Shown in pieces: positions 13,742 through 21,181 of a stretch of 35,856 bases of DNA (positions are counted from its first letter, which is position 1; each line of letters starts with the position of its first letter). The notes under the pieces were generated by a model, which saw only the letters and a list, made by a program, of their open reading frames with translations, did no database searches and was not told the DNA's origin. The stretch is from Cellulosilyticum sp. (GTDB taxonomy: Bacteria > Bacillota > Clostridia > Lachnospirales > Cellulosilyticaceae). The stretch is from assembly GCA_029851645.1 (NCBI GenBank), contig JARKVN010000138.1, positions 1 to 35,856 of the forward strand, in the 5' to 3' direction. Both the position numbers and the translations under genes were made by a program.

Positions 13742-13755
13742 ATAGGAACAAAACA

Positions 13756-13795
13756 TAAGGGCAAAGCTATGATTCTATTTTAGCTTTGCCCTTAC
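13756..13795. terminator. Bidirectional terminator between convergent genes
   Basis: TAAGGGCAAAGCTA...TTAGCTTTGCCCTTA hairpin followed by CGTTTT. Confidence 0.78.
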
Positions 13796-13809
13796 GTTTT
13801 ACTCATTTT

Positions 13810-16800
13810 CTATGAAAATAAACTGAGTTGATTGCTCCCTAATACACTGAGCGCAACTGGATCATTATCCATAAAATATGCCTTCTTAATTTCTTGCTCC
13901 TTAGAGAATATAGAAGTTCTTTGGTCTAAAGTACTTCTTAATTTACAGCTATACACAATTGGGAAATATCTTCTGATGAAATCGCCTTCTGAATGGGCTG
14001 TAAGCGCAATCATTTGGAAACCTAATTGCTTTGCAATAAAGAATACAGGTTCTAGAACGTGTCCACTTGATGCTTTTCCAAATGGATTATCCAAAATCAC
14101 TGCCCGGCTTACTTTTTGCTCTTCACTCTGGATGTTTTGTTTCTTCTCCGCTAGATAATTTAAAATCCCGAGATAAAGTGCCATATTCTTGCTCCATTTT
14201 TCTCCCCCTGACCATTTATTAGAGGTTTCCCATCCATATTTCTGGCTACTAATATCACTTGTACTACTTACCTTACGGCATCTTACTCTAATGGCATCAT
14301 TCCCCATGACAACTTTTAGTAGATTTTTAAGTTTGAATTGTTCCTTAATATACTTCTTAATCTTTTGTACATCTTCTTTTCCAGTATCATCTAAGAAACT
14401 CTTGCCTTCAATATCATCTAAAAGACTGTAAATATGTGTACGAATCTTTTCTTTCCCACTTTCCTCTTGCCAACTTGGAATCGTAAATTCATAAATATTT
14501 TTCCAACCCTCTTCTGTATTCACCCTAGTTTTCTTAGGAATTTCAGCAAGTTCACTAGCTACTGTTCTAAGATAAGCATAAAGATGAATAATAAACTGAG
14601 AAATTTGTTGATCCTGATCTAAAAGGTCTCTTTCTAAAATGGTTAAAGTATGATTAATACGCTCTACAATATTCTCTTTCCACATCACAAGTTCCTCATA
14701 GTCTTGCTTTTGTGTAATGCCTTGAACAGCCATATTACGTAACTTGCTATCTCGAATCTCTCTTTGGCAAAATAGCTTAAAATCTGTCTTTCTATCCTCT
14801 ACAGCTTGTTTACTGACTTCTAAATGATTTTTAAGCCAAGCTAGACGTTCTAACAAATTGTTTACAATAACTCTAACTTTTAGTTCATACATGAATTCCT
14901 GCTGCAAGTTTTCATCTAGTACACCTTCTTTAACTTCTGGTGCACAATAGCCATAAAGTTCATCTTTCTTATCCATCTGTTGCTTATGCTCTAAAATGAA
15001 CTTAAGCTCTTTTTCTAGACCTAATACTTTTTTAGAAACATATTTTTCTTTCTCACCTAACTCTATTTGTGCTCTACCTAAACGTTCTTTCGCTTGATTA
15101 GAATAATCAATCTGCTCATCTACTTTTTCGTAGTTTGTTTCATAGGCTATTTTTTTACTTTGATAGTCTTGCTCTTTTTTATCAAAGTCTGTTTTAGCCC
15201 CTCTAACAACATGATCAAAACTTTCTAAGCCTTTTTTTATCTCTTTTAATTCTTCTGTAAGACGTTCTACTTCCTCTTCAAACTCTTCCCTATAAAGAGG
15301 AATCTGCTCTAGCTGTTCTTCTCTTTCTGCTTGTTCTTGACGAAAACTTTTTTCATTTTCCTCATAAGCTTTTTTATTTTGCTTTAAAAGGCTTTCAATT
15401 TCACTGCGTCCTTTTTGCTTGTTACTTAATGCTTCCTTTAACTGCTCTTGTTTATCTCTTAAATAGGTGATATCCCTATTGGAATAAATCGCTTCTTCAT
15501 CTTTTACTTCCTTGTAAAGGACATCATCTTTAATACGATTTTCTTGACTTCTAAAGAGGTTATATTGTTCTTTAGCTTCATCTAAAGCCTCCATGACATT
15601 TCTTAGCGCCTGTTCCACTTTAAATAAAGAATCTTCTTCTACCTTAATATCACCTTGTAAGTTCTTTATCTGCCTTTCATCTCTTTCACATTCTTTTTTA
15701 AGTTCGATATAGTCTTCTGCTTTCTCTACGTAATTTTGTAATCTATTTTTTTCCTCTGCCTCTTTACGTAATGTTTCGTTTATAAGCTTTCTTTCTTTTT
15801 CTACTCGAATCAGTTCGTCTTTAGCCTTTTCTATGGCTCTTACAAACTCCATTTCTTTTCTTTTAAGCTGGTCGCTTTCTTCTCTTAAAGCAGCATATTT
15901 TTCATGAGGATATTCTGATAAGAAGTCACTTAACTTTTCTAAAATCTGCTCTATTTCACGCAAAGTTTTTTCTTTTTGTTTACGAAAAGCAACTGCTGAC
16001 TCTAGTGCTTTTTCAGTTTCTCTTTTACGTAGTTTAAAACGCTCTGTTTGGATATTTTCGCTCCAAGCTGTAGGATAAATGAGATTTGTTAGCTCATCTT
16101 CCACTTCAAGAAGCGCCTTTGCTTCTGAAACATTTATGACCCCTACAGGGTAGGTCATTTTATCTTTTTGCATCTCTATCAAATGCTTTAGTTTTTCCTC
16201 TTCGCCATCAGCAACTACTACCATCTGTGCCCATCTAGGTTGACCATACATTTTCTCCTTCAGCACGTTACTTTCTAAACTCTCAATATAACTAGTCCCT
16301 GTTTGTAAAAAGCTAAACTCACTCATCCATTTTTCCACCCAAATCTCTAGGAGTGGTTCTACTGTAAAGAAGTCATGAGATTCATAGTTCTCAATGAAAT
16401 GGGCATGCTGCCGTTCTAAAAGAAGGGCTTCTTCTTTTTCCCTTGTCATTTTCTCTACTTGCTCTTCTAATGCTGTCATCACCTGCTGAGGTTTTAAGTA
16501 AATAGAAGATAGGTTATTAAAAATAGGTAGAGCCTCTTTAACTTCATGAAGCACTTTTTCCTGTGCACCTTCTAACTGTTCAAGCTTTGCATGCACCTTT
16601 GCGATTTCACCTAAAAACTTTGAGCGATTTTCCCTATTTTCTTCAAGTATTTTGCTATACTTTTCTTCATTTTCTTCTATTCTTCTTAAACTTTGCCTGC
16701 TCTTTAGTCGATTGTTTTCAATCTCTGTTAGTCGTGCTTTCCACTTATCATGTTGCCCTACAATGTCCTCATAGGCCCCTTGAGCAAGCAGCGTCATTTT

Positions 16801-18234
16801 AATATGATTCATTTGCTTTTGCTGATGCTCTAGTTTTCCTGTCATTTTACTTGAATCATTTCTAAGGGTTTGAAGTTTTAATGAAAGCAGTTGTTTTTGC
16901 TTCTTATTTTCTGTCTCCTCCTCTAAATAGCGTTCTTTTTCTCTGCCGCAGTGCTGCATTTCTCTCTTAATATTTTCTAACTGTTCTTCAAAGTATCCTT
17001 TAATTTGCCCACTATTTTCTTCTAATGCTTCTTTTAATGCTTCCACTTCTGTATCTGCATCTAATAAAGCCAGTTGCTCTTCATAAAGCTTGATTTTAGA
17101 CCTAGATTCATTCATATTATTTTGAAATCTAGAAAGCTTTAAAATATGACGCCTTAATTCTTTTTCATCTTGTTTTCCTTTAGCTACCTCATAAGTTTGT
17201 CTTTCTTTCTCATAGTATGTCCTAGCACGCTCTAGCACACTTTTAGACTCTAGCACTTCAATGAGGGCTGTTTCTTTTTCTAAAGCTTTTTTCTCTAACT
17301 CTATACTTCTTCTTTCACCTTCTAATTGAGTGATTAGGGCTTTTGTTTGATTTTCTTTTGCTTCAATAAGCTTCCAGACCGCTTTCGCTTCCTCTTTTTT
17401 TGCCTCATACTCTTTGACCTTTTGATGATAGTCACTATAGCTTATAACATAAGCCTCAATTTCTGACTTGATTTTCTCACTTTCTTTAATACTTCTCTCT
17501 AACTGCTTATGCTTATTAAAGTGTTCTCTCTGGCTTTCAAAAGTCCCCGCAAACTCCTCACTTCCCTTACCTACTAAACCTTGCTCTACTGTTGGCAAAA
17601 GAAGCTTTTCTACTAAATCAGAAGTTGTATGACACCCATCAAAGAAAGCTTCTACAGAACCTTCCCCGCCATTAATGACGGCAACGCTCCTCCATTCCTC
17701 TGGAATAATCTTAAAATGCGCTTCAATATAGCTATGAAACTCCTTAGTGGTTGAAAAAGTTTTAGCAAGTAGATGCTCTTTACTCATTTTTTGATAGTAC
17801 TCATTCATCTCTACCCTTGTGGCTGCTCGTATGCCTTCGCCCTCTTCTTTTATAAAAGGTAAACTTTCAATATGCTCTTTATCTTCTACCCCATACTCAT
17901 AAGCATATTTATAAGATTTTAATTCATTATTTTGAAGATACAAGGTTACAGCGGTTAAACCATAACGTCTTGGTTTATCGCTAATAATCCACTCGATGGC
18001 AATATGTGCTGCATTCCCTTCTAATATAAAGGTTTCCTTTGCCTTACGCTCTCCCAAATCTGTATGAGGCAAAACGGCCTGTAGAGCAGCTTGGATAAAG
18101 ACTGTTTTTCCACCACCATTTTCAAGTAAAATAGCTGTGTTATGCCCTGCACAAATAAAAATCTCATCATTGTAGCGTTTCCCGCCATTTTCATAAATTA
18201 CATTAGTGTATCTAATTTTAGATATTGATGCCAT
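13810..18234 (-). CDS. SMC/MukB-like coiled-coil ATPase, Wadjet JetC-like
   Basis: Walker A-like AILLENGGGKTVF; about 1100 aa of charged coiled coil; signature motif NKWSGGEKWSKNMALYLG; Walker B-like VSRAVILDNPFGKASS; H-loop MIALTAH. Third gene of a jetABC-like operon, 17 bp after the jetB-like gene, RBS GAGGGT. Confidence 0.8.
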   Translation of the reverse strand: MASISKIRYTNVIYENGGKRYNDEIFICAGHNTAILLENGGGKTVFIQAALQAVLPHTDLGERKAKETFILEGNAAHIAIEWIISDKPRRYGLTAVTLYLQNNELKSYKYAYEYGVEDKEHIESLPFIKEEGEGIRAATRVEMNEYYQKMSKEHLLAKTFSTTKEFHSYIEAHFKIIPEEWRSVAVINGGEGSVEAFFDGCHTTSDLVEKLLLPTVEQGLVGKGSEEFAGTFESQREHFNKHKQLERSIKESEKIKSEIEAYVISYSDYHQKVKEYEAKKEEAKAVWKLIEAKENQTKALITQLEGERRSIELEKKALEKETALIEVLESKSVLERARTYYEKERQTYEVAKGKQDEKELRRHILKLSRFQNNMNESRSKIKLYEEQLALLDADTEVEALKEALEENSGQIKGYFEEQLENIKREMQHCGREKERYLEEETENKKQKQLLSLKLQTLRNDSSKMTGKLEHQQKQMNHIKMTLLAQGAYEDIVGQHDKWKARLTEIENNRLKSRQSLRRIEENEEKYSKILEENRENRSKFLGEIAKVHAKLEQLEGAQEKVLHEVKEALPIFNNLSSIYLKPQQVMTALEEQVEKMTREKEEALLLERQHAHFIENYESHDFFTVEPLLEIWVEKWMSEFSFLQTGTSYIESLESNVLKEKMYGQPRWAQMVVVADGEEEKLKHLIEMQKDKMTYPVGVINVSEAKALLEVEDELTNLIYPTAWSENIQTERFKLRKRETEKALESAVAFRKQKEKTLREIEQILEKLSDFLSEYPHEKYAALREESDQLKRKEMEFVRAIEKAKDELIRVEKERKLINETLRKEAEEKNRLQNYVEKAEDYIELKKECERDERQIKNLQGDIKVEEDSLFKVEQALRNVMEALDEAKEQYNLFRSQENRIKDDVLYKEVKDEEAIYSNRDITYLRDKQEQLKEALSNKQKGRSEIESLLKQNKKAYEENEKSFRQEQAEREEQLEQIPLYREEFEEEVERLTEELKEIKKGLESFDHVVRGAKTDFDKKEQDYQSKKIAYETNYEKVDEQIDYSNQAKERLGRAQIELGEKEKYVSKKVLGLEKELKFILEHKQQMDKKDELYGYCAPEVKEGVLDENLQQEFMYELKVRVIVNNLLERLAWLKNHLEVSKQAVEDRKTDFKLFCQREIRDSKLRNMAVQGITQKQDYEELVMWKENIVERINHTLTILERDLLDQDQQISQFIIHLYAYLRTVASELAEIPKKTRVNTEEGWKNIYEFTIPSWQEESGKEKIRTHIYSLLDDIEGKSFLDDTGKEDVQKIKKYIKEQFKLKNLLKVVMGNDAIRVRCRKVSSTSDISSQKYGWETSNKWSGGEKWSKNMALYLGILNYLAEKKQNIQSEEQKVSRAVILDNPFGKASSGHVLEPVFFIAKQLGFQMIALTAHSEGDFIRRYFPIVYSCKLRSTLDQRTSIFSKEQEIKKAYFMDNDPVALSVLGSNQLSLFS

Positions 18235-18251
18235 TTATTTTACCCTCATTT

Positions 18252-18968
18252 CTAGCTAAACTGATAAATAAAGTCTAATAATCCGCGATTATACTCATAA
18301 TCCATGTAATAACGCTGAATAATTACTTTTGTTTTTTCTGTGATTTCTAACTCATAATTTCCAATATCTTTAATCATATCTTGTTTTTCTAAGAACTGCC
18401 TCGTCATATTTAAAAAACTAATACGGCTACTGCTTGTCCCTGTTACCTTTTTGGCTTTTTCTTTAACGTCATCTAAGGCCTTCCATTTATCTATAACTTT
18501 TATCCAGTTGTATGCTTGCTCTTCTTCTATTTTTTGAAGTAACTCCTGATCCATTTCAGCCAAATGATCTACTTTTGTATTAACCGCTTCTAGCCACTCC
18601 TCCATACTGATAAAAGTTCTTGTTGGCTCCTTGGTTTGATAACTATTATAAAACTCCCCTAGTAAAATAATGATGGTCACATACATTAAGTAAATATCTA
18701 AGTTTGTAGCATTATTAGGTAAATAAAGCTTTTTAATGGTTTCATTACTCATATGGAAAGGTGAACTACTTGCAATGGGTACAAGATATATCTCTTCTCC
18801 TGCAATAATAATGGTTGCATGATCTTGCTTGGCAAACTGGTTCACTAATTCTTCTATACGCTCTTCTCTTATGTAAGCTCTCATCTCACCCAAAGAACAA
18901 GAACCAGCTACCGCAAGTTTACTATACAACTTGTAAGACTCTAAAATTTCTTCATTTCTATATTCCAT
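18252..18968 (-). CDS. MukE-like, Wadjet JetB-like protein (DUF6063-like)
   Basis: Position between the JetA- and JetC-like genes and size of about 238 aa. ATG at 18968 has RBS AAGGTGA and overlaps the upstream stop by 11 nt; the track start at 19004 is less likely. Confidence 0.65.
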   Translation of the reverse strand: MEYRNEEILESYKLYSKLAVAGSCSLGEMRAYIREERIEELVNQFAKQDHATIIIAGEEIYLVPIASSSPFHMSNETIKKLYLPNNATNLDIYLMYVTIIILLGEFYNSYQTKEPTRTFISMEEWLEAVNTKVDHLAEMDQELLQKIEEEQAYNWIKVIDKWKALDDVKEKAKKVTGTSSSRISFLNMTRQFLEKQDMIKDIGNYELEITEKTKVIIQRYYMDYEYNRGLLDFIYQFS

Positions 18969-20475
18969 ATCTCTCACCTTCTTTTTGCTTAATCGTGATG
19001 TCAATAATCATATTTTTAATTTCAAAACGGGACACTTTCTGGATCGTTCCTTCATACTCCATGACTTTGATATGATTTGTTATGCCACCTAAGGCTTCTT
19101 TGACACCATTTAACACACTTTCTTCCTCTAACTCTTCAAACTTAATAGGCGACTTTTGGTGTAAAATCATCCACATATCATAAAAAAGTCTTTGCTCCAA
19201 AAATTCTGGTCTTACTTCCTGTAAATATGTACAGATTTCGTCTAATGTCATCACACTTCGACTCTCCCATAAAGGTAAAACCTCACCCATAACCTCTTTA
19301 AAATACTCACCTAGTTTAGATTTACTTTTACTGATTTCTTCCTCTGTTGTGCCTTCCACAAAGGCTCTACCTCTCTCCTTATCATCTGGTCTTTCAATAC
19401 GCTGCTTATAAAATACGCTCATGGGATGCCATATTTTAGCACGCTCTAATTCTAAGAAAGGTTCTATAAATGTTTTACTCGTATAAAGTGGCATCGGATT
19501 CCCCACTAGTGCCTCTACAATTTCTTGCTGAAAGTTAAAGCTATCTATCCCTATGTAATAAAGGGCTTGCTGTGCTGCATCTAAAGCATGGGTTCTAAGG
19601 ATGATACTTTCTTGTAAAAGCTTACTATGTTCATGGTGAACTTCTTCTAATCGATTATCAATTTTTAAAATCAAATCATAAGCCTTTTTATCTTTTTCAT
19701 TATCTAACTGATACTTTAAGCTGTCTTTTGTTAGCCTAACAAATTCTTGCAGTTCTTCAAACTCTTCATTTTCTCTTATGAGCCTTAAGTTAATATCTTC
19801 AATGAGCCGTTTATACCTTGTATAAGTTTCTTCTGATACAATACTTCGACTCACTTCATTTTTAATTTTTGCCAAGCGTTCAGTCAGTGCTTCTGCTGAT
19901 AAGTCCATCTCATCCACTTGCCTCAGCGCCCCCATAAACTCGCCTTTTTCCAATTGCTTACGAAGGAGTAATTGATTGATAGAAATTTGAAATTCGCTAA
20001 AATACTCCTTACTTGAAAAAATGAGCTCTAGGCCCTGCTCATCCAAAACATAGTATTGTGTATTCGATTTTAAATCTGAGCGTGACGCTTTTAAAATCGA
20101 ATAATAAACCGTCTCCTCTCCCCCTGTTTCCCAGTTATAAAAAGTTCTACTATTACGTTTTCCATTAGAAGGTCTATAAACCTCTATGATTTCTCTGGCC
20201 AGTTCTTCAAAGCCTTCCTCATCTAAACTAATTTTTTCATGACACATCTCATATAAAAATAAGGCAAGTTCCCTTGCGCCACTTGTCTTTTGACGCATAA
20301 TCATATTCTCAAAGAAAAAGAGTAATGTAAGCATACCTAATTCATAATACGGAATCTCCCTCCCCTGATGGTCTTTCCCTTTTTTCCTATCTAAACGGTA
20401 TAATGCTTCATAAATGGCAAGTCGTTTCATACGTTCACCAAAATGATCCACTACCCGTCTTGTTTCTAAGTTCAT
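18958..20475 (-). CDS. Kleisin/MukF-like, Wadjet JetA-like protein (DUF5716-like)
   Basis: First gene of the SMC operon; N-terminal RRVVDHFGERMKRLAIYEALYRLDRKKGK and helical body. ATG at 20475 preceded by GGAGG with 8-nt spacing; the track start at 20505 has no RBS. Confidence 0.65.
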   Translation of the reverse strand: MNLETRRVVDHFGERMKRLAIYEALYRLDRKKGKDHQGREIPYYELGMLTLLFFFENMIMRQKTSGARELALFLYEMCHEKISLDEEGFEELAREIIEVYRPSNGKRNSRTFYNWETGGEETVYYSILKASRSDLKSNTQYYVLDEQGLELIFSSKEYFSEFQISINQLLLRKQLEKGEFMGALRQVDEMDLSAEALTERLAKIKNEVSRSIVSEETYTRYKRLIEDINLRLIRENEEFEELQEFVRLTKDSLKYQLDNEKDKKAYDLILKIDNRLEEVHHEHSKLLQESIILRTHALDAAQQALYYIGIDSFNFQQEIVEALVGNPMPLYTSKTFIEPFLELERAKIWHPMSVFYKQRIERPDDKERGRAFVEGTTEEEISKSKSKLGEYFKEVMGEVLPLWESRSVMTLDEICTYLQEVRPEFLEQRLFYDMWMILHQKSPIKFEELEEESVLNGVKEALGGITNHIKVMEYEGTIQKVSRFEIKNMIIDITIKQKEGERYGI

Positions 20476-20573
20476 TCTAGTTGCCTCCAAATGTTTTTGT
20501 TTCATATAGATTTCTTATATCATTATACTACAAAATTTGACCTAGTGAGTAAACCAATGATAGGTTTTTCGTA

Positions 20574-20605
20574 CCAAAAAAAGACCCAGATTCAATCTGG
20601 ATCTT
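20574..20605 (-). terminator. Terminator separating the NlpC/P60-like gene from the jetABC-like operon
   Basis: AGATCCAGATTGAATCTGGGTCTTTTTTT on the minus strand, directly after the stop of CDS 20606-21181. Confidence 0.8.
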
Positions 20606-21181
20606 CTATCCTATCTCTTCATTTCTTACTTCCTCAGTAGAAAGCTCATCAATCACCTCATACAATGCAGGCTCTAATGGACCTTCATAAACTAACTTGA
20701 GCTGGTCATGATTTCTAAAGTCATCACTTCTCACATGTATAGGGTGTTTATTTAAATTTAAAACACCTGTCTCCTTTAACACATGAGCCACAAACTGTGT
20801 ACAAAAAAATCTATTTTTTCGCTCATAATCAATATTCAGCCCTTGAGCTAAGACACCTAAAAAGTGATATTTATATTTCCTTTGCTCCAAAAGAAATCTT
20901 TGAATCAACTGCTTCACCTCTAAATACTGCTCATCGGTTACTTCAAGCTCATAAATACAGCACTGAACCTCTTTAAAATAGTCTACCCACTGAGGATAAT
21001 CTTCCTGAACAAAGCCACCAATTAAAGGATTGGTGATTTTTCTTCTAGAAAAGCTATAGCCATGTTCCAAATGTTTACTCATAATAATAGAGGCATGAAC
21101 ATAGTCTTCTTTTGTATGACAGGCGATTACCCTAGATAAAGTTGAACTCGTCTTGGTTAGTAATATATATATATTTGGCAT
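20606..21181 (-). CDS. Permuted NlpC/P60 (YiiX-like) papain-fold protein
   Basis: KEDYVHASIIM (candidate His) and RKNRFFCTQFVAHVLKETG (candidate Cys) in the permuted His...Cys order typical of this fold. Confidence 0.55.
   Translation of the reverse strand: MPNIYILLTKTSSTLSRVIACHTKEDYVHASIIMSKHLEHGYSFSRRKITNPLIGGFVQEDYPQWVDYFKEVQCCIYELEVTDEQYLEVKQLIQRFLLEQRKYKYHFLGVLAQGLNIDYERKNRFFCTQFVAHVLKETGVLNLNKHPIHVRSDDFRNHDQLKLVYEGPLEPALYEVIDELSTEEVRNEEIG

Follow-up and report, generated by a model that had tools for sequence, protein, structure and literature searches.

A JetD-less type III Wadjet operon in Cellulosilyticum with a candidate clamp-binding motif at the C-terminus of JetC

Introduction

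In Wadjet systems, JetABC senses and extrudes DNA, which is then cut by JetD (PMC12287153). Certain members of the Wadjet group do without this nuclease, namely MukBEF and 'several other' complexes (PMC7617805), and MukBEF has replaced Smc-ScpAB in its hosts (PMC10586767). In Stenotrophomonas maltophilia, a Wadjet type I system without jetD was found to have a highly conserved jetABC and was judged 'probably inactive' (PMC11680222). A review regards it as unsettled how Wadjet and other SMC complexes are related in evolution (PMC10586767). At issue are the way in which Wadjet complexes find their cellular targets and what the JetD-less complexes of this group do.

Binding to the beta sliding clamp follows a consensus, QL[S/D]LF or QxxLF, of which the C-terminus of Bacillus subtilis PolC (QLSLF) is an example (PMC12309361). 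Escherichia coli CrfC, a nucleoid-partition factor, also binds the clamp (PMC6374313).

Here, we analysed a stretch of 35,856 nucleotides (contig JARKVN010000138.1, assembly GCA_029851645.1), hereafter called the window, from a Cellulosilyticum MAG of 148 contigs that is 86% complete (G000). Its jet locus resembles Wadjet type III (JetDABC) in its full-length orthologous JetA, JetB and JetC, in the A-B-C order and in the ATPase motifs, but differs from it in that no JetD is adjacent and that several of the genomes carrying the operon have no JetD at all.

The jetABC operon and its boundaries

Positions 13810 to 20475 of the window hold a complete jetA-jetB-jetC operon, with all three ORFs on the minus strand and no adjacent jetD (Table 1). 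The likely start of jetB is the family-conserved ATG at 18968, as the mechanically called TTG at 19004 would add 12 residues. With this start, jetB overlaps jetA, whose stop lies at 18958, by 11 nt and is separated from jetC by a gap of 17 nt, in agreement with the spacing that the original prediction gave for its three minus-strand genes. The end of the unit at 20475, also taken from that prediction, coincides with a jetA ATG located 8 nt after a GGAGG Shine-Dalgarno site; the start proposed by the ORF tool, at 20505, is an in-frame ATG upstream. Likewise, the terminators named there as bounding the unit were recovered as hairpins whose folding is far more stable than that of shuffled sequences. 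We consider this anatomy near certain.

The 12-mer TGTAGTATAATG is found in identical form 5' of jetA in four Cellulosilyticum genomes or species, where it is followed by the Shine-Dalgarno site. Since both elements are conserved upstream of jetA, the operon appears to begin at this gene, with TGTAGTATAATG as its probable -10 region; a generic sigma-70 scan did not single the element out. The gene upstream of the operon encodes a 191-aa protein without a match among defence profiles, and the downstream neighbour of jetC, a convergent cation-efflux gene, is not JetD-like.

Table 1. Features of the jetABC locus and their positions in the window
Feature	Position	Strand	Description
jetA	18958..20475	-	kleisin-like subunit of type III Wadjet; 505 aa, counted from the ATG behind a Shine-Dalgarno site
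jetB	18252..18968	-	KITE/MukE-like subunit; 238 aa; DUF6063
jetC	13810..18234	-	SMC-type ATPase; 1474 aa; JetC3 profile, ATPase motifs
JetC C-terminal QLSLF	13816..13830	-	codons of residues 1469-1473; candidate beta-sliding-clamp-binding motif
TGTAGTATAATG element	20521..20532	-	probable -10 region upstream of jetA; conserved
Intrinsic terminator of upstream gene	20570..20606	-	hairpin and T run, z -3.9
Bidirectional convergent terminator of jetC and cation-efflux gene	13742..13809	.	hairpin, z about -8.8 on both strands

Assignment to Wadjet type III

The locus had been described from its sequence as a Wadjet/MksBEF-like JetABC operon without jetD, and PADLOC profiles place it in Wadjet type III. 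JetC3 gives 1623 bits over residues 1-1473 of 1474, while JetB3 (354 bits) and JetA3 (689 bits) match near full length; JetB is moreover matched by Pfam DUF6063 with 273 bits. Homologues of JetA3, JetB3 and JetC3 therefore lie in one operon, from which the JetD nuclease is missing. The ATPase motifs expected of a functional JetC are present, with Walker A (NGGGKT), signature (WSGGEK) and Walker B-type (VILDNPFG) all intact. Walker A NGGGKT, SGGE and DNPFG are also intact in the main JetD-less clades considered below, the Walker B of G068 included.

In the Walker B-type motif (a hydrophobic residue followed by D-N-P-F-G; residues 1378-1389 of the window JetC), Asn replaces the usual catalytic Glu after the Asp. 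This Asn was seen in almost every type III JetC that was read, whether JetD is present or not, and a degenerate Walker B was thus rejected as a trait of JetD-less operons.

The best Foldseek match of the JetA model (61.5, moderate) is MukF of MukBEF; the match is weak (E 0.037, prob 0.99), and the sequences are of type III. A PDB sequence search found no relative of type III JetC or JetD.

JetD in the genus and in the genome of the window

Orthologues of the window JetC, with 68-75% identity, were found in four of the six other Cellulosilyticum genomes (in one case divided between two contigs), and none was found at E 1e-30 elsewhere among the 24 family genomes searched. In all, jetABC occurs in five Cellulosilyticum genomes, with JetA 81-83% identical between the window and its genus relatives. 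JetABC is missing from G005 and from most of the family, and is therefore dispensable. No adjacent jetD was seen at any orthologous locus, of which that of G002 can be read only from inside jetA, where its contig begins.

Searches with PF09983, with PADLOC JetD3 and with a profile of 31 type III JetDs revealed no JetD in G001, G002 and G004, the first of which is a single 4.7-Mb contig with 99% completeness. The profile of 31 type III JetDs found none in G057, G087 and G142 either. As controls, Corynebacterium glutamicum was matched, and profile A4 recovered the JetD of sister genomes. The JetD of G006 is of type II and is accompanied by its own JetC2. As far as these profiles can tell, the JetD-less operon stands alone in G001, G002 and G004. 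The co-occurrence, across relatives, of the locus with a jetD encoded elsewhere, which the original prediction had named as an argument against it, was accordingly not found.

In the window's own genome, the PF09983 search located a single JetD, an intact 323-aa JetD3 on contig C78, which retains the conserved ENK and GDxD residues. This jetD is directly followed by jetA and jetB, and the C78 JetA is 51% identical to the window JetA. A second jetC, represented by its 3' part, lies at the end of contig C92; its product is 40% identical to the window JetC. The two contigs probably hold a single canonical D-A-B-C locus that was split at contig ends by assembly, although their join is inferred; the parts of this second, probably complete Wadjet III locus lie at 81-3264 of L017 (C78) and at 3372-5192 of L018 (C92). 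Of the possibilities initially left open, a nuclease-free SMC complex is thus supported by the relatives without any JetD. The genome of the window, with the jetD of C78, is itself not JetD-free.

Recurrent loss of jetD and retention of jetABC

Among the genomes searched, 392 from the order and 399 from the phylum, a type III JetA was found in 35. The usual type III gene order is D-A-B-C, and six further genomes, all of family f22, have no jetD upstream of jetA. Three Lachnospirales genomes (G057, G121 and G135) retain a remnant of jetD, its last 30-odd codons, just 5' of jetA. This scar matches the final residues of JetD in a sister genome, G203, where the gene is intact (HIEEMSCHLSEAYIPQEALTKDELQ-LISD), and in G057 it has an internal stop. 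Neither G142 nor G087 has jetD, while their sister G193, in which the downstream genes are laid out alike, does. In G135 and G068, another JetD, which is divergent, belongs to a complete D-A-B-C operon of its own. The well-supported branches of the JetA tree require that the state of jetD changed at least five times. Read from these scars and from the tree, the loss of jetD in type III is recurrent and secondary.

The genes that remain are conserved. The dN/dS of the window jetC against its genus orthologues is ~0.10-0.11, and that of jetABC in the five Cellulosilyticum genomes is about 0.06-0.15. JetA, JetB and JetC of JetD-less Lachnospirales pairs gave pairwise values of 0.02-0.19, similar to those of JetD-containing pairs. 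JetD-less jetABC is under purifying selection. These operons are comparable to the S. maltophilia Wadjet I in having a conserved jetABC without jetD (PMC11680222); that case, however, concerns type I in one species, whereas the present one concerns type III in several lineages and includes scars and selection data. The combination of recurrent, scar-marked jetD loss in type III with purifying selection is new to the literature that we searched, and the supplementary data of PMC7617805 may list some of the operons.

Spread of the JetD-less operon by plasmids, phages or viruses was considered and rejected: one distant plasmid match was obtained (Pontibacillus, with JetD), and none among phages or viral contigs.

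A clamp-type motif at the C-terminus of JetC

The window JetC ends in LGSNQLSLFS and its genus orthologues end in QLSLFV or QIGLF, so that the window protein carries the same C-terminal pentapeptide as B. subtilis PolC (PMC12309361). Of the 39 type III JetCs, 28 have the pattern Q[LIM]x[LFM][FLIM] among their 15 C-terminal residues, compared with 2/311 other ORFs (both the same TetR protein), 8/3582 internal JetC windows and ~1/39 shuffled tails; these counts take related JetCs as separate, and p-values derived from them are not literal. None of the JetA, JetB or JetD tails shows the pattern, nor do the type II JetC tails examined (one from G006 and four from plasmids). The 11 type III JetCs without the motif include the second JetC of G000, which ends in RLGQAE.

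The form of the motif was described from 19 distant tails that were picked for having it, and which do not constitute a second test. The motif is their most conserved part, the last 200 aa having a median identity of 33%, and columns 1, 2, 4 and 5 are the most informative, with Q in 19/19, L in 12/19, S in 8/19, L in 15/19 and F in 12/19; S is the commonest residue at position 3. The JetC of a Pontibacillus megaplasmid, also distant, ends in QASLFDEE.

The motif was observed in 10/10 JetD-less JetCs of the main clade and in about two thirds of those from JetD-containing systems. Because JetD-containing systems have it as well, the motif cannot account for JetD loss. A link between gain of the tail motif and loss of jetD was likewise not supported, the independent pairs being too few and undirected.

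The window JetC thus possesses a Q-x-x-L-F type motif in a position whose accessibility is assumed from its terminal location; the AlphaFold model of the C-terminal fragment is poor (pLDDT 48). Short motifs can be misleading as evidence; we consider it fairly likely that the QLSLF tail binds the DnaN clamp. In the literature searched, neither an SMC or Wadjet protein bearing such a motif nor a link between Wadjet and the sliding clamp was found, and a JetC tail of this putative clamp-binding type would be new to it. In comparison with CrfC (PMC6374313), the candidate motif is here carried by an SMC protein.

A possible role on replicating DNA

The association of a JetD-less motor with a clamp-type tag suggests work at replicating DNA rather than plasmid cutting. 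Our preferred reading, to which we give a probability of roughly one half, is that a Wadjet III JetABC motor has been kept without its nuclease, is recruited by the clamp and acts on replicating DNA without cutting it. JetABC would still load on DNA and extrude loops by ATP hydrolysis, and the QLSLF tail would dock the JetC head on the DnaN clamp. As a consequence of this docking, the complex would act on replicating or freshly replicated DNA, which, without JetD, would be compacted, silenced or segregated instead of cut. The non-cutting function on replicating DNA is, when taken separately, a tentative proposal. More generally, type III Wadjet motors might dock on the sliding clamp through the C-terminus of JetC, several lineages having dropped the nuclease and controlling replicating plasmid, phage or chromosomal DNA uncut; we regard this extension as speculative and rather more doubtful than clamp binding by the window JetC itself.

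If true, a clamp-binding tail would bring the motor to DNA at the replication fork, which offers a simple and testable answer to the question of targeting. Moreover, repeated loss of the nuclease with the motor kept would provide naturally occurring intermediate steps from defence to chromosome maintenance of the MukBEF type; for some of them, there are sister genomes that differ in jetD and have neighbouring genes in common.

Alternative explanations

It is unlikely that JetD has given way to some other effector whose gene lies elsewhere. A Wadjet-like defence needs an effector, and 10 conserved JetA columns are changed in the whole JetD-less Cellulosilyticum clade (including R201D and E285R), more than in most JetD-containing clades; yet as many or more are changed in two JetD-containing lineages. 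The same changes might reflect the decay of a surface on JetA that binds JetD, a reading to which this comparison applies as well. Furthermore, the neighbours vary by lineage (amylase, MATE, Dus, MCP, EF-G-like, Pirin, MFS, glycosidase and cation-efflux genes), and neither a conserved companion nor a common candidate effector was found in the gene neighbourhoods of the JetD-less lineages.

No better placed is a dedicated accessory condensin that organises the chromosome independently of the clamp, in the manner of MukBEF, which is itself a Wadjet-group SMC complex without nuclease (PMC7617805). MukBEF took the place of Smc-ScpAB in its hosts (PMC10586767), whereas ScpA was found in 12/12 JetD-less relatives searched, and JetD-less JetABC is therefore a second SMC complex rather than the sole condensin. 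The housekeeping role initially envisaged is for this reason improbable if it is meant purely as replacement of the main condensin. The ScpA search of the window MAG gave no match, which is probably due to incompleteness. The absence of JetABC from G005 and most of the family also weighs against this explanation, which in addition leaves the tail motif unexplained.

A shared nuclease, by which the JetD-less JetABC would be a functional plasmid-cleaving Wadjet borrowing the JetD of the second locus, appears a little less probable still. The C78 JetD is intact, with its conserved residues, and could in principle serve both complexes of the window genome. However, it has its own JetAB, just as the JetD of G135 and G068 belongs to a separate complete operon, and as a general explanation sharing was rejected, because G001, G002 and G004 hold the JetD-less jetABC and no JetD.

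Finally, a decaying remnant, in which jetD loss has disabled defence and jetABC is in the course of being lost too, would fit the deletion scars and the truncated JetB and JetC of G003, a distant JetD-less type III lineage, but is very improbable, as the ATPase and tail motifs are retained and the dN/dS values of the Cellulosilyticum genomes and Lachnospirales pairs largely contradict decay.

Other type III operons

Within the same family, the G003 locus with truncated genes (L106, contig C44) and a locus of G020 (L108, contig C11) form a separate, divergent lineage of JetD-less type III JetABC, whose ATPase signature is non-canonical (STGQSNG in G020). G003 also has a JetD-containing Wadjet III operon (L105, contig C67, 3079-9802), in which jetC is broken up into three frames (521, 507 and 295 aa). 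In two Lachnospirales Wadjet III operons, a 480-aa protein is encoded between jetB and jetC (L089:8585-10027 and L090:4888-6330); the L089 copy was tested and corresponds to Schlafen AlbA_2/HATPase_c_4. The JetCs of these two operons have no tail motif and a variant Walker A (QNGIGKT in L089). At L080:6046-8253, jetA and jetB are apparently fused in one 735-aa frame, which may be a true fusion or a sequencing error.
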